Shown here: piece by piece, positions 7,701-14,015 of the stretch
Numbering within the stretch: the first letter of the stretch is position 1
Layout of the letters: every line of letters begins with the position of its first letter
NCBI RefSeq assembly: GCF_002078355.1
Contig: NZ_CP015363.1
Location: forward strand, 1,674,001-1,738,000
From: Ferroplasma acidiphilum
Lineage (GTDB): Archaea; Thermoplasmatota; Thermoplasmata; Thermoplasmatales; Thermoplasmataceae
Length of the DNA stretch: 64,000 nucleotides
Direction: 5' to 3'
Notes under the pieces: generated by a model
The model's database searches: none
What the model saw: only the letters and a program-made list of their open reading frames with translations
Told to the model about the DNA's origin: nothing
Made by a program: the position numbers and the translations under genes

Positions 7701-9020
7701 TTATTTTCTTTTCTTTATTGCGTATGCTGCAACACCTATTATTGCCAGTACAGCTATTATCCCTCCTCCTATATAGTATTCTGTGTAGTCTGTGTTATGG
7801 AATGGAGTATTGGATACAACCATGGTGTGGTTTGAGAAATGTGGAACATACATAAATACATACATCCCGGAAGATGTGTTTGTGTATGAATAATAGGCAT
7901 GGGTGCTGCTGGTTTCATTTACAAGTGTAGACATTGAAACATATGTAGCAATTCTTCCATCAAATTTAACATAGGCATGGCCAGTGTTCTTTGTCACATT
8001 GTTTCCTATGAATACTGCCACTATGGTATGGTGGTTTACTGTAGAGTTTATGTCAAATGATGTTGTTGATGAGCTTTTGCCTGTATACACAAAATGTGTA
8101 GAAGAGTTGTAATTTATTGTGCTATTTGCAATTGTTCCATTGACTAAGTTCAGAGCTATTTCTGATGATATCCTTCCGTGTATAATGTTGCTTAAAACCA
8201 TGCTGTTGTTAGATATTTTCTGAAGTCCGGGTGGAGCTACCATATTGACCAGGACAGGTCCGGAGGATGTATTGCTGCTTATAGTTATTGTATTATTTGT
8301 TATTTTGAAGTTACCATTGTGGATAAACAGCATTGCTATTGTTCCATTGTTGTCTATAACAATCATCTGTCTCCCGGCATTTATGGTATTATTGAAATTC
8401 ACCATGACATGATCTGCCATATTCGCATTACCGAATACATTTGAATTTGCCTGAGCGTTCAAGCTATTGTTTGCACTTATGCTGACCTGTGTATTGTTGG
8501 ATGTGCTGTATGATATATTTGCGGTGGATGGTACGACCAGGGTTAAATTGCCATTTACCATCATGTTGCTTTCCAGAGTTGGGTTATTGTGCAAAACGTA
8601 GAACGATGTGCTATTCATCATGATAAACATATTGCCTATTCTATAGGCTGTACGGGAATTCGTGGAGAAACGCAGAATAGGTGATGAAATGCCCTTTATA
8701 GAAGTTCCGTTGGAATACATCTTGCTTATCAAAACTGTTGATGTTAGGTTATATGTCACATTGGAGAACACACCGGTAGATGAATTGAAATCCGCTGTTA
8801 GATACTTGCCCATCACCATTCCTGTCGTGCTATTATACATCAATTTGGCACCGTAGTTATTCTTAAAATGCGTATGAATGCTGTCATTAAAACCTGCAGC
8901 TGATGGTCCTGATAATGCTGGTGAATTTGCCTGGCTGCCCGAACTAAGGGGAACCATGGCAAATACAGAAAATACCATGACCACAGCTATCATTGTTGCT
9001 ATGAGTACTTTATACTTCAT
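7701..9020 (-). CDS. Cell-surface glycoprotein with signal peptide and C-terminal membrane anchor
   Basis: The 439-residue protein begins with a secretion signal (MKYK, then about 16 hydrophobic residues, ending near SSGSQA). It ends with one transmembrane helix (GGGIIAVLAIIGVAAYA) and a basic tail IKKRK that would anchor it from the outside. The ectodomain is rich in Ser, Thr and Asn and contains about two dozen N-x-S/T sequons, so heavy N-glycosylation is likely. It has no cysteine in the ectodomain and no enzyme motif that I recognise. A wall-less acidophile would plausibly use such a protein as an envelope or surface-layer component; that role is inference. It is divergent from dtdA, with a 261-bp intergenic region between. 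Confidence 0.7.
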   Translation of the reverse strand: MKYKVLIATMIAVVMVFSVFAMVPLSSGSQANSPALSGPSAAGFNDSIHTHFKNNYGAKLMYNSTTGMVMGKYLTADFNSSTGVFSNVTYNLTSTVLISKMYSNGTSIKGISSPILRFSTNSRTAYRIGNMFIMMNSTSFYVLHNNPTLESNMMVNGNLTLVVPSTANISYSTSNNTQVSISANNSLNAQANSNVFGNANMADHVMVNFNNTINAGRQMIVIDNNGTIAMLFIHNGNFKITNNTITISSNTSSGPVLVNMVAPPGLQKISNNSMVLSNIIHGRISSEIALNLVNGTIANSTINYNSSTHFVYTGKSSSTTSFDINSTVNHHTIVAVFIGNNVTKNTGHAYVKFDGRIATYVSMSTLVNETSSTHAYYSYTNTSSGMYVFMYVPHFSNHTMVVSNTPFHNTDYTEYYIGGGIIAVLAIIGVAAYAIKKRK

Positions 9021-9281: not shown

Positions 9282-10055
9282 ATGATTTTATTAATTGCCT
9301 CGAGAAAAGATGGAGCAAGCATGGAAATGGCATCCAGATTGCTTGAACTTTTCAAATTTGATAAACTGGACGCGAATAGATACACTTACAAAAATTATGA
9401 ATTAAAATTCATTGACAATTTGCATATATACCAGAACATGGAAGACCTTGAAGAGGAGGTTGAAAAGGTTGTTTTTCTATCAAAGCATTCTTCAAAGGCA
9501 GATATAAAATCCTTAACTGTACATCCCATTGGCAACTTCAGGAAAGCTGAACTTGGCGGCCTTGACAATGTAATAGTCCCATCAGATCCACTTGGAATGA
9601 GTGCTTCATTGAGGTATATCAAGAACAATTATTCAGGAGACCATTTTGAAATAACATTTGAAGCCACACACCATGGCCCGTATATGGAAAAGCCTGCATA
9701 TTTCATAGAAATAGGAACCACGGAAAATGAATGGAAACAGGAAGGCATAGCTGATCTGATGGCCAGAGCCATAATGGAAGGCGTTGAGAAGGACTATGGA
9801 AATTATGTTGGCGTTGGTGGGGGGCATTATGCCCCGAAACTAAGCAGTTATTTCTTCAGCAATGATATAAACATAGGGCATATAATACCCAAATATGTAC
9901 ATGAGATAATTTCAGAGGATGAAATTGAAAATGCTGTATTAAAAACAATGAATTGCAAAGGTTTTCTAATGGATGCGCACGGGACGAAAGGCAGAGTGAA
10001 GGATATGATTGCAGGAATTGCAGATAAACACAGCCTGGAGGTTTTGAAAATCTGA
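9282..10055 (+). CDS. dtdA: Archaeal D-aminoacyl-tRNA deacylase DtdA
   Basis: The 257-residue protein matches the archaeal/plant GEK1-type D-aminoacyl-tRNA deacylase. Key segments are FLSKHSSKADIKSLTVHPIGN, FEATHHGPYMEKPAYFIEIG with TTENEW (about residues 126-151), and the VGVGGGHYAPK motif near residue 176 that holds metal-site histidines. DtdA removes D-amino acids mischarged on tRNA. Its presence implies exposure to free D-amino acids. The genes just downstream (a PLP enzyme, a DUF1611 protein and a PP-loop protein) may belong to amino-acid chirality metabolism, but they have their own TATA-like element at about 10066-10080, so cotranscription is not assured. Confidence 0.92.
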   Translation: MILLIASRKDGASMEMASRLLELFKFDKLDANRYTYKNYELKFIDNLHIYQNMEDLEEEVEKVVFLSKHSSKADIKSLTVHPIGNFRKAELGGLDNVIVPSDPLGMSASLRYIKNNYSGDHFEITFEATHHGPYMEKPAYFIEIGTTENEWKQEGIADLMARAIMEGVEKDYGNYVGVGGGHYAPKLSSYFFSNDINIGHIIPKYVHEIISEDEIENAVLKTMNCKGFLMDAHGTKGRVKDMIAGIADKHSLEVLKI

Positions 10056-10114
10056 TATATAAATGCTCAATGTTTATATATGAAATTAGGTTATATTGAT
10101 ACTAGTGAAAAAAA

Positions 10115-11050
10115 ATGGAAATAGAAACAGAAGATAAACCCCCGGGTAGTCCATTAATAAGGGATTCTGACATAGGCAACTATCTGGAGAGAAGCAATTT
10201 TTTTATCAAATATGAAGGGGTAAACCCAACGGGAACCCAGAAAGATAGAATTTCAAGAAAACATGTTGAGAATGCAATAAAACATGGGTATAAGGAAATA
10301 TCTGTGGCAACATGTGGAAATTTTGGGGCGTCAATTGCATATTATGCAAGGGGAATGGGCATTAAGGCGATCGTTGGAATACCAGCGGAGTATTCAAATT
10401 CAAGGCATGCAGAAATAGCTGCATATGGTGCAGACATAATAGAAAAACCACTGAAATATGAAGAAATGGTTGAATATATAAGGGGAGAGGCAAAAAAGAA
10501 CAACTGGTATGATGCAAGCCCCGGATCACCAAATAAAAGCATAGATGTTTCAGGATACAGCGAAATATCATTTGAAATTTATAACCAGCTTGGCTTTGCC
10601 CCTGAATATATATCAATACCGGTAGGGAATGGAACAACATTTTATGGAATATATTATGGATTCCTGAAATTATACAGGGAAAGAAAAATAGATAAAATGC
10701 CGAAATTCATTGCAACAAGCACTGAAGGCGGAAACCCCATTGTCTATTCATTCATAAACGGGTTCAGAAACATAGTTGAGCTTGACCCTGAAAATATCGT
10801 TGAAACATATGCAAATGAACCGTTGATTGCCTACAGGTCATATGATGGGCAGAAGGCCCTGGATGCACTGTATAAAACACATGGAAAAGCATTATATGTA
10901 TCTGATATGGAAATGGAAGAGATATCCAGAGGATTTAAAAGAATTGATAATTTATCAGTTCTGCCAGCATCTGCTTCTGCGGCTGCAGGTGCATTAAAAT
11001 TTGCGGGAAATAATAGTTGCGTCATCGTATTAACTGGAAGTGATAAATAA
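10115..11050 (+). CDS. Threonine synthase-like fold-type II PLP enzyme
   Basis: The 311-residue protein has fold-type II PLP features: NPTGTQKDRISRK, whose lysine (about residue 45) would bind PLP, and the phosphate-holding ATCGNFGASIAYYARG (about residues 66-81). Near the C-terminus are LPASASAAAG and VIVLTGS. Closest family is threonine synthase, but the protein is short, and the usual SSGN motif reads TCGN. A different beta-elimination, replacement or racemisation reaction is therefore possible. Its stop codon overlaps the start of the DUF1611 gene by one base (TAATG at 11048-11052), so the two are translationally coupled. No homoserine pathway genes are nearby. Confidence 0.75.
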   Translation: MEIETEDKPPGSPLIRDSDIGNYLERSNFFIKYEGVNPTGTQKDRISRKHVENAIKHGYKEISVATCGNFGASIAYYARGMGIKAIVGIPAEYSNSRHAEIAAYGADIIEKPLKYEEMVEYIRGEAKKNNWYDASPGSPNKSIDVSGYSEISFEIYNQLGFAPEYISIPVGNGTTFYGIYYGFLKLYRERKIDKMPKFIATSTEGGNPIVYSFINGFRNIVELDPENIVETYANEPLIAYRSYDGQKALDALYKTHGKALYVSDMEMEEISRGFKRIDNLSVLPASASAAAGALKFAGNNSCVIVLTGSDK

Positions 11051-12078
11051 TGGAAAAGGCAGTGGTTCTTTCTGAGGGGTGTTTTGCCACCACATATGGC
11101 AAGACGGCCAACGGGCTTGTAAGGTACAGCAAAAGGTATGACATAGTTGCAGTCATAGACTCGAGATACTATGGCATGGATGCAGGGTATGTCCTTATGG
11201 GCAGGCAGAATGGCATAAGGATTGTCAGTACAATTCAGGAGGCAAAAGCTCTCGGGGCTACAACACTGATAATCGGTGTTGCAACTGATGGGGGTTATCT
11301 TCCGGTGGAATACAGGCAATATGTTTCCACGGCTATCGAAGAGGGAATGAACATAGTAAATGGGTTACACCAGTACATAAGCAATGATAATGAATTCAGC
11401 AAGCTCGCAAAAATATACGATGTGGAAATTACTGATGTAAGGAAAATTTTTAACAATTATGAATATTCATTTACAGGAAAAATACAGGAGGTAAAATCGA
11501 AAAAAATTGCGGTACTGGGAACGGATAGCGCTATAGGCAAAAGGACAACTGCAGTTTATCTGAATGATGCCATGAACAGGAAGAAAAAACAATCTGAATT
11601 AATAGGCACCGGGCAAACATCCTGGATGCAGGGATTTCCATATACAGTTGTAATGGATTCAATCATAAATGATTTTGTTGCCGGGTCTTTAGAATATATA
11701 ACATATAAAGCATGGCAGGAAAAACATCCTGAATATATGTTCCTTGAAGGGCAGGGGTCTATTCTGCATCCAGCATATCCAGGAGGGTTTGAAATAATAG
11801 GTGCAATGCGCCCGGATGCCATAATACTCCAGCATGCGCCAAAAAGGAAGTTTTACGACGGCTTCCCTGAATACCCTATTGAGCCGCTGGAAAAATACAT
11901 AAAGGTTCTTGAGCTTGTTTCCAACAAAAAGGTAATTGCAATATCATTGAACACCGAAAATATGGAAAAATCAGAGATAGAAGTTGAGAAAACAAAACTT
12001 GAAAAAATATACAATATACCTGTATTCGACCCTCTGGAAGAATTTGAAAACATTACCGGCGTTATATCAGATTTATGA
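11050..12078 (+). CDS. DUF1611 family P-loop protein (DgcN-like)
   Basis: This 342-residue protein matches DUF1611. It has an N-terminal Rossmann-like domain (VAVIDSRYYGMDAG, TLIIGVATDGG) and a C-terminal P-loop domain with GTDSAIGKRTTAVYL (about residues 158-172). Later come QTSWMQG, FLEGQGSILHPAY and LQHAPKR, all family hallmarks. Some bacterial homologues (DgcN) take part with the epimerase DgcA in interconverting D- and L-glutamate, and others sit beside dipeptide epimerases. By that precedent this protein may modify glutamate or a peptide, but this is inference. It is coupled to the PLP gene upstream and lies 36 bp before the PP-loop gene. Confidence 0.8.
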   Translation: MEKAVVLSEGCFATTYGKTANGLVRYSKRYDIVAVIDSRYYGMDAGYVLMGRQNGIRIVSTIQEAKALGATTLIIGVATDGGYLPVEYRQYVSTAIEEGMNIVNGLHQYISNDNEFSKLAKIYDVEITDVRKIFNNYEYSFTGKIQEVKSKKIAVLGTDSAIGKRTTAVYLNDAMNRKKKQSELIGTGQTSWMQGFPYTVVMDSIINDFVAGSLEYITYKAWQEKHPEYMFLEGQGSILHPAYPGGFEIIGAMRPDAIILQHAPKRKFYDGFPEYPIEPLEKYIKVLELVSNKKVIAISLNTENMEKSEIEVEKTKLEKIYNIPVFDPLEEFENITGVISDL

Positions 12079-12114
12079 ACCACCGAAATATATACTTTAT
12101 GTGGGTGCTAAAAA

Positions 12115-13530
12115 GTGTATATTGACAATGTAATTTCATTTGACAGTATTGAGGTGAATATAGCCAGTATTGAGAAAAAAAGGATCATAGGAAATATAAA
12201 ATTTGATGATTTTTCATACAGGTTGATTTTCACATATGCCGAAGATATTGATGTGGACAGGAATATAGCAGGGCTTATACTTACAATGCCTGCAATTAAT
12301 TTTACCTATTTTGCCCGGAAACTGGTTTTAAATTTCCCGGTATCACCTACAGATATAGAGTTGATAAAAAATTTTATGAAAATAAATGCCCATGAAGTTT
12401 TTATTAATAAAATAATAAACAGGAGATATGATTACATCAAACCGGAGTTTATACCGGCTGAAGATGATATTACCGCAGCCAATGCTGATGGAATAACTGA
12501 GCTTGTATGCCCTGAAACTTTCAGCGAAGAGAGGCCATGGAATACATCCCCTGATAAGGTGGCTATTATGTCCTCAGGCGGCAAGGAAAGCCTTTTAGCC
12601 TTTGGAATTTTCAATGAAATAAACAAACCGGAAAACAATTATTCTTTCTATTTTGAAGAATCCGGTTCACACTGGCTCACAGCAAAAACAGCCTATGACT
12701 ATTATAAAGAAAATTTTGGAAATGTAATGAAAGTATGGTCAAATACAGACAGGTTTTACCATGAAATGCTGAATCATATAAAAATAGTGAACACAGATAT
12801 GATAGATATACTATCAGATGATTATCCAATCCAGGTTTTTATTTTCCCGGTGTATATATTTTTGCTGCTGCCTTTGCTCAAAAAATATTCCATTGGAAAT
12901 ATAATCATGGGCGATGAATTCGACGACCCTCGGGAAATGGGTGATTATAAAGGATTGAAATATTACTATGGAATTTTTGACCAGACTTATGATTTCAACC
13001 ATATGCTTTCTCTATACTTCAATAAGAAAGGGGTAAACGCAGGTGTATACTCTATAGTTTATCCAGTAACCGGATATCTGGAAGAGAAAATTTTAATGGA
13101 ACGCTATAGGGATTTGTTCCTGCAGCAGAGATCATGCCACTCATGCCATAGAAAAGACGGTGTAATAGAACCATGCGGGAAATGCTCGAAATGCCTTGGA
13201 ATACTATTGTTCATTGAGGCTTCTGGAGGAAAACCGGAAGATATATTGTATTCCAGCGATGACGTAAGATTATTAAAAAGAAGGCTTTCAAAGGCAAGGC
13301 TCCGGCTTGACCCTGATGAGAGGATTTATGCAGAATCAAAAATTGGTTTGTATTCCGGCAGTATTGGAGATGCTGAACATGCCGGAGGATTGCATATTAT
13401 GCCCTATGAGAATTCTCTATTTTCCGTAATACCGGATAATTTCCGCAGCCCTATTGAAAAGATATTTTCAGCTTACGCAGAAGGGATATTTAAACTGGAC
13501 AATGGAAAATGGGTAAATATTCAGAAATAG
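12115..13530 (+). CDS. PP-loop (ATP pyrophosphatase-like) protein with C-terminal four-cysteine metal site; MurL-like candidate
   Basis: The 471-residue protein has a family-specific N-terminal domain of about 140 residues, then an ATP-pyrophosphatase PP-loop, IMSSGGKESLLAFGI (about residues 148-162). It also has a cysteine cluster, CHSCHRKDGVIEPCGKCSKC (about 342-361), like the zinc site of QueC-type enzymes. I do not recognise a proven function. The arrangement of PP-loop followed by a CGKCxKC site, with AMP-forming chemistry, recalls bacterial MurL, the glutamyl epimerase of peptidoglycan precursors. QueC-like nucleoside chemistry is an alternative. The start is GTG at 12115, preceded by GGTG at 12104-12107. 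The 3' end overlaps tsr3 (opposite strand) by 10 bp. Confidence 0.65.
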   Translation: MYIDNVISFDSIEVNIASIEKKRIIGNIKFDDFSYRLIFTYAEDIDVDRNIAGLILTMPAINFTYFARKLVLNFPVSPTDIELIKNFMKINAHEVFINKIINRRYDYIKPEFIPAEDDITAANADGITELVCPETFSEERPWNTSPDKVAIMSSGGKESLLAFGIFNEINKPENNYSFYFEESGSHWLTAKTAYDYYKENFGNVMKVWSNTDRFYHEMLNHIKIVNTDMIDILSDDYPIQVFIFPVYIFLLLPLLKKYSIGNIIMGDEFDDPREMGDYKGLKYYYGIFDQTYDFNHMLSLYFNKKGVNAGVYSIVYPVTGYLEEKILMERYRDLFLQQRSCHSCHRKDGVIEPCGKCSKCLGILLFIEASGGKPEDILYSSDDVRLLKRRLSKARLRLDPDERIYAESKIGLYSGSIGDAEHAGGLHIMPYENSLFSVIPDNFRSPIEKIFSAYAEGIFKLDNGKWVNIQK

Positions 13531-14015
13531 CTGTCCTGGACCTGAATGCACTCTTCATCACTGTTGCATTTCATATAATCATTTAGCGGGTTTATATTAG
13601 TTTTGATAAAATTCTGTGCCCATGAGTATTTGGAAATAACATCGCCGGCAAGTTCTGAATATCCCATAATATATAACGCAGCGGCTAAAGCTTCCAGTGA
13701 TGATAATTTTCCGGGCTTTCCATAATTCACAGGATTTACCGGTAGCAATAGTGGAAGCTTTTTCCCGTTTTTCCCTTTAATATTTTCTATGGTGTTTATC
13801 CTGTTCCATGAGCCGTCAATAACAACTATCCCCTTATCCTCAAACAGGATTCTATTTGAATTTAACAGAAAATTATCGGAGTACGGCGTGAGGTAAAGTT
13901 TATTGTATATTTTATTAAGAGGTATTTCAATGGCCAGCCCATAGCGTTCCAGTTTTTTCATGGTTGATTTCTTTGGATCGTCCTGGCTAAGATAAACATA
14001 AAATATTTTTTCCAT
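13521..14015 (-). CDS. tsr3: Tsr3-type rRNA aminocarboxypropyltransferase
   Basis: This 164-residue protein is an archaeal Tsr3 (formerly DUF367). It shows the basic early segment with QDDPKKSTMKKLERYG, then VIDGSWNR, LLPVNPVNYGKPGKLSSLEALAAALYIMGY split over residues about 95-124, and the closing SWAQNFIKTNINPLNDY. Tsr3 transfers an aminocarboxypropyl group from SAM to N1-methylpseudouridine (or pseudouridine) in small-subunit rRNA, close to the decoding centre. After the core it has a short tail with two cysteines (CNSDEEC) that is not needed by the fold. Its 3' end overlaps the PP-loop gene by 10 bp. Confidence 0.88.
   Translation of the reverse strand: MEKIFYVYLSQDDPKKSTMKKLERYGLAIEIPLNKIYNKLYLTPYSDNFLLNSNRILFEDKGIVVIDGSWNRINTIENIKGKNGKKLPLLLPVNPVNYGKPGKLSSLEALAAALYIMGYSELAGDVISKYSWAQNFIKTNINPLNDYMKCNSDEECIQVQDSYF

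Follow-up and report, generated by a model that had tools for sequence, protein, structure and literature searches.

A conserved operon of a PLP enzyme, a DUF1611 protein and a PP-loop protein in Ferroplasma and distant archaeal relatives, with a possible role in the inversion of acidic amino acids

The Ferroplasma acidiphilum genome consists of one 1.83-Mb contig, of which we analyzed a stretch of 64,000 nucleotides (the window). Within it, three consecutive genes encode a PLP enzyme, a DUF1611 protein and a PP-loop/cysteine-cluster protein, here called PPC (Table 1). The first two genes overlap by 1 base (TAATG), PPC follows after a gap of 36 bp, and the gene for the D-aminoacyl-tRNA deacylase DtdA lies directly upstream, exactly as the first-pass annotation had placed them. 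PPC is read from a GTG start codon; its relatives align at that residue, and some of them have ATG there. The candidate TATA box TTTATATA suggests that the operon may have a promoter of its own, separate from that of DtdA. A near-identical locus is present in Ferroplasma acidarmanus Fer1 (L116). On the other side of DtdA, the minus strand of the window (7701-9020) encodes a protein of 439 aa that has a hydrophobic segment at its N terminus, a membrane anchor at its C terminus and no Pfam match; its gene is kept next to DtdA in near relatives.

Table 1. Features of the operon and its immediate neighbors (positions in the window)
Feature	Position	Strand	Description
DtdA (D-aminoacyl-tRNA deacylase)	9282..10055	+	Neighbor only; PF04414, 4.7e-59
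Candidate TATA box TTTATATA	10073..10080	+	Read from sequence; ~35 bases upstream of the PLP start codon
PLP enzyme gene	10115..11050	+	Fold type II, 311 aa; TAA stop at 11048-11050
DUF1611 gene	11050..12078	+	342 aa, DgcN-like; ATG start at 11050
PPC gene	12115..13530	+	471 aa; QueC-type core (predicted), distant MurL relative
PPC N-terminal domain, residues 1 to ~144	12115..12546	+	Contains helices plus four beta strands, as predicted by the model
PPC PP-loop SSGGKES, residues 153-159	12571..12591	+	Read from sequence
PPC cysteine cluster C341-H-S-C344...P-C354-G-K-C357-S-K-C360	13135..13194	+	Aligns with the QueC zinc site
Tsr3	13521-14015		Opposed to the three-gene operon

Conservation of the gene order had been proposed for examination across the Thermoplasmatales, and we found that it reaches far wider. 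PPC was present in 49 of 61 relatives, and almost every locus read showed the same gene order, which argues against a chance arrangement. Among 80 named loci, PPC lay immediately 3' of DUF1611 in 76 and the PLP gene lay upstream in 62. Of 200 class genomes searched with a profile, 34 gave long PPC matches. Every one of the 27 genomes sampled from Ferroplasma's family was among them; four genomes sampled from family f5 lacked PPC. The identical order, PLP-DUF1611-PPC, also occurred in Bathyarchaeota and other Thermoproteota, where a profile search recovered full-length PPC from 16 of 300 genomes, and in a tree the PPC-linked DUF1611 proteins formed a single clade (support 100/98). The PLP gene was missing in family f4 and part of f3, and thus the core of the gene set consists of DUF1611 and PPC. 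Adjacency to DtdA was mainly confined to Ferroplasma's own family. As it was absent near the operon in other families, we rejected DtdA as a module member, and the earlier link between the deacylase and the module was dropped.

The DUF1611 protein matched both Pfam domains tested (PF07755/PF17396) over the gathering score, DUF1611_N with 2.3e-26 (92.4 bits) and DUF1611_C with 6.1e-61 (205.8 bits). It carries the P-loop GTDSAIGKRTT and has relatives of solved structure (2g0t, 7xrj, and 2obn). The DUF1611 family counts among its members DgcN, a D-glutamate N-acetyltransferase whose partner is the N-acetyl-D-Glu racemase DgcA (PMC11747546, PMC12363236), and both activities carry EC numbers (PMC11747546). 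The operon resembles this pathway in that its DUF1611 protein is homologous to DgcN and in that class relatives pair DUF1611 with a DgcA-like enolase; it differs in that the DUF1611 protein scored 173.8 bits on the DgcN model NF041892, well below the cut-off of 480, and in that PPC stands where the enolase would. Thus, the original description as a DgcN homologue stood in the broad sense of family and epimerase neighbors, but not at the level of the DgcN model. In PPC-less relatives, neighborhoods placed DUF1611 next to an L-Ala-D/L-Glu-epimerase/DgcA-like enolase in families f5, f12, f20, and f21, coordinates placed it beside such an enolase in f13, and in f9 it adjoined an ornithine-racemase-like (Orr-like) protein. 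Eight f12 loci (L104, L109, L268, L271, L281, L282, L284, and L292) combined DUF1611 with a beta-RFAP-synthase-like GHMP protein and an enolase of the L-Ala-D/L-Glu-epimerase-like type.

Other DUF1611 genes had different company. In L110, L111, L273, L275, L286, and L289, the gene adjoined that of 4-phosphopantoate-beta-alanine ligase, which suggests a different role in those lineages. Further neighbors were KsgA, or PLP and GNAT genes together with a DASS-like transporter; the KsgA and transporter genes are named from their sequences. DUF1611 is therefore not tied to one context, and because the protein falls short of the DgcN cut-off and some relatives lie beside CoA or KsgA genes, its reaction in the operon may differ from that of DgcN. 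The PPC operons of L183, L184, L195, and L359 lay close to an enolase-type epimerase, with an M14 carboxypeptidase (PF00246) nearby in L183 and L195 and a GNAT protein in L183; judged from sequence, L184 and L359 contain ORFs resembling these carboxypeptidase/GNAT neighbors. The enolase domain PF13378 was found in 190 of the 200 genomes, too many for its presence or absence to be informative when set against PPC; with enolase-superfamily genes common in genomes with PPC, no clean mutual exclusion of the two could be discerned.

The PLP enzyme gave a PALP match in Pfam (2.4e-47) and scored 401.5 bits on PRK06381 “threonine synthase” (NF004996; cut-off, 266). The genome encodes a separate ThrC (TIGR00260, 239 bits; cut-off, 167), along with a further ThrC-like gene. 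In threonine synthase, the NSxNPxR segment binds the substrate phosphate. This segment is present in the genome's ThrC and absent from the PLP enzyme and the orthologues displayed, the ThrC stretch NSLNPWRIEGQKT being replaced by ASPGSPNKSIDVSGYSE. The genome's own ThrC and the missing segment make the assigned name doubtful. Although the enzyme shares PLP fold type II with threonine synthase, it differs in lacking NSxNPxR and in its linkage to DUF1611, and from its sequence it is probably not a threonine synthase.

Direct searches with PPC returned no match over the cut-off in Pfam, NCBIfam, PADLOC, or PDB sequences, and searches with PPC consensus sequences again returned none; tblastn of PPC against plasmids yielded nothing useful. 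PPC is thus unrecognized by Pfam and NCBIfam at their cut-offs, yet it is near-universal in Ferroplasma's family and recurrent in Thermoproteota. Among 110 homologues, S154, G156, K157, C341, C354, C357, and C360 were conserved in at least 97%. An AlphaFold2 model built from 17 homologues reached a mean pLDDT of 92.4. Its best PDB matches were QatC of qatABCD (9y02_B, 1.3e-5) and Cap9 of type IV CBASS (9nto_B, 3.7e-4), and phage QueC models also matched. The predicted core of PPC is a QueC-type PP-loop/zinc fold with QatC-like extensions.

We then compared PPC with QueC itself, the 7-cyano-7-deazaguanine synthase. The same genome encodes a true, separate QueC, which aligned co-linearly with PPC from the PP-loop through the zinc cysteines (hhalign E of 0.0004 for that single comparison; probability, 35%). 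The QueC family PF06508 gave weak matches in 4 of 17 PPC members (best, 0.013) that did not reach the gathering score, and none in the Ferroplasma PPC at an E value of 1 or below. The PPC motif SGGK(E/D)S and the cysteines C341/C344...C354xxC357xxC360 fit the QueC pattern SGGxDS/C(x)8CxxCxxC, with the first invariant cysteine spaced differently, and both proteins have a PP-loop core with an SC...CGxCxxC zinc site. QueC, however, has neither the N-terminal nor the C-terminal extension. Moreover, the conserved motifs of canonical QueC, YxQxHxxE, VPxRN, and YPDC (PMC13329287), were not kept in our PPC alignments, where ESGxHW, YPIQ...FPVY, and GxEFDDP stand instead. The absence of a match over the cut-off, the replaced motifs, and the separate QueC rule out that PPC is QueC. 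By sequence, nothing over a cut-off places PPC there or in a tRNA-sulfuration family, the placements that would have refuted the first-pass annotation; its predicted core fold is still of the QueC type. QatC shares with PPC a three-part layout of N-terminal extension, QueC core, and C-terminal helices. The QatC core spans residues 145-377, with cysteines at 334, 354, 357, and 360 and extensions at both ends (PMC13279940), compared with a PP-loop at 153-159 and cysteines at 341, 354, 357, and 360 in PPC.

MurL, an ATP-using glutamyl epimerase to which PPC had been likened, was the only NCBIfam model (NF041275) that matched PPC proteins repeatedly. The matches (E values of 0.0004 to 0.13) always fell around the cysteine region, and the best match among the 200 class genomes was a PPC. 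Other matches, near model positions 119-171, were mostly SGGKDS proteins, so that a PP-loop seems to be built into the MurL model as well. A PPC profile search of Thermoproteota identified two divergent proteins of 454 residues, in genomes G414 and G438, that bridge the two families: they matched the PPC profile with 9.3e-14 and 1.9e-15 (E values per genome) and the MurL model with 1.8e-8 and 1.4e-9, respectively. The latter matches cover model positions 125-337 and 132-336 (205-213 positions), including the PP-loop and the cysteines, and SxGK, E182, G266, E268, Q290, S313, S340, and the four cysteines are kept in the alignment. Through these bridge proteins, the region from the PP-loop to the cysteine cluster is common to PPC and MurL, whose direct matches are weak. 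The best PPC scored 19 bits and the bridge proteins 33-37 bits, and the family cut-off of 700 was not reached. Together, the weak direct matches and the two bridge proteins support common ancestry of PPC and MurL, so that the proposed likeness held at the superfamily level but fell far short of membership in the MurL family. Divergent 454-aa PPC/MurL-like proteins of Thermoproteota at L343:833-2197 and L344:5704-7068 have SFGKDS in place of SGGKDS and adjoin a radical-SAM SplB-type-like protein and an ABC transporter, both named from sequence. No MurL over the cut-off was found in Myxococcota.

MurL reportedly requires ATP and Mg, forms AMP, and works from L to D only; it was described as having no known domains (PMC5808125, PMC8788868). 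The two proteins are similar in length (447 residues in MurL and 471 in PPC), and both have the PP-loop in the first third and the cysteine cluster 160-190 residues further on. They differ in that MurL acts with MurD2 in peptidoglycan synthesis, whereas PPC is linked to DUF1611 in wall-less archaea; its conserved neighbors, among the part of the neighboring ORFs that the annotation covered, are the DUF1611 and PLP genes. The reported substrate of MurL is a UDP-MurNAc dipeptide, which is not known from these archaea. Because MurL was reported to run one way, from L to D, and to be inactive on free Glu, likeness to it would not fix the direction or the substrate of PPC. The sequence relationship supports ancestry only and does not make PPC an epimerase.

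From sequence and gene context, this little-studied gene set of wall-less, acid-loving archaea and their distant relatives probably handles mirror-image acidic amino acids. Beyond this, we tentatively favor, at slightly less than an even chance, a stereo-inversion module for an N-acylated or peptidyl acidic amino acid, in which PPC would be an ATP-using epimerase that replaces the enolase. The substrate, acylation, epimerization, ATP use, and direction that we infer are as follows. The substrate would most likely be glutamate or aspartate, either N-acylated or bound in a peptide, and the DUF1611 protein would carry out the N-acylation of the amino acid in the manner of DgcN. At its PP-loop, PPC would use ATP to activate a carboxylate group and would then epimerize the alpha-carbon, as proposed for MurL; it would thereby fill the role that DgcA, a racemase of the enolase type, has elsewhere. 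An accessory function on the same amino acid would fall to the PLP enzyme. Salvage of D-amino acids by the module would require the D-to-L direction, opposite to the single direction, L to D, reported for MurL.

The main rival explanation takes the predicted fold as its guide. PPC would then be a QueC/QatC-like ligase or amide synthetase that adenylates a carboxylate and couples ammonia or an amine to it, and together with the DUF1611 protein and the PLP enzyme it would make or modify a small molecule, such as a cofactor or solute, with no inversion of an amino acid. A fold of the modeled QueC type fits amide or nitrile formation just as well as epimerization, and reuse of the QueC fold for several different chemistries has been described (PMC13329287). 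The structural matches to QatC, Cap9, and phage QueC, the co-linear QueC core with its zinc cysteines, and the near-universal presence of the module in Ferroplasma's family, as expected of core biosynthesis, also point this way. However, the loss of the three QueC motifs, a sequence kinship that, by way of the bridge proteins, ties PPC more clearly to MurL than to QueC, and neighbors that indicate epimerases and acetyltransferases make us regard a ligase as somewhat less likely than an epimerase.

A related proposal is that PPC acts on a partner, modifying the N terminus of that protein as Cap9 does and as QatC has been proposed to do. The matching domain layout and the like positions of cysteines 354/357/360 are consistent with it, but the PADLOC matches of PPC were weak and confined to QueC, with none to a QatC model, and among the ORF calls for the linked genes a Met-Gly start was almost absent, Gly occupying position 2 in 1 of ~57 PLP and 1 of ~73 DUF1611 proteins; we consider this very unlikely. 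It is also very unlikely that the PLP protein is a genuine threonine synthase and that the three genes are loosely connected. The PRK06381 score is in its favor, but the additional ThrC and ThrC-like genes and the replaced segment are not, and the tight linkage over two phyla speaks against a loose connection.

Returning to the stereo-inversion module, we consider it possible, if on balance doubtful, that PPC is a new archaeal family of ATP-using amino acid epimerases replacing the enolase racemase beside DUF1611, and that PPC, MurL, and QatC belong to a single group that combines the QueC fold with an N-terminal extension. Were this grouping true, MurL would gain a fold and a mechanism, namely, carboxylate adenylation at the PP-loop followed by inversion, and one more chemistry would be added to the QueC fold, for which a place in phage defense has recently emerged. 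Wall-less archaea would hold an ATP-driven inversion of acidic amino acids, and the name threonine synthase, given to the PLP gene throughout these archaea, would be wrong.

A few PPC genes lay outside the common arrangement. A genome of the same genus (L065) has, besides an intact copy, a second, broken copy with several stop codons (G002:C43:10758-11221), with ~57% identity over the best part. A lone PPC occurred in a Myxococcales MAG (L181, JAAZNF010000038.1); as none of 145 other genomes of the phylum had one, we attribute it to transfer or contamination. In L352 and L353, PPC occurred without DUF1611 and adjoined a GNAT-like protein and an isoaspartyl peptidase/asparaginase-like gene, both named from sequence.
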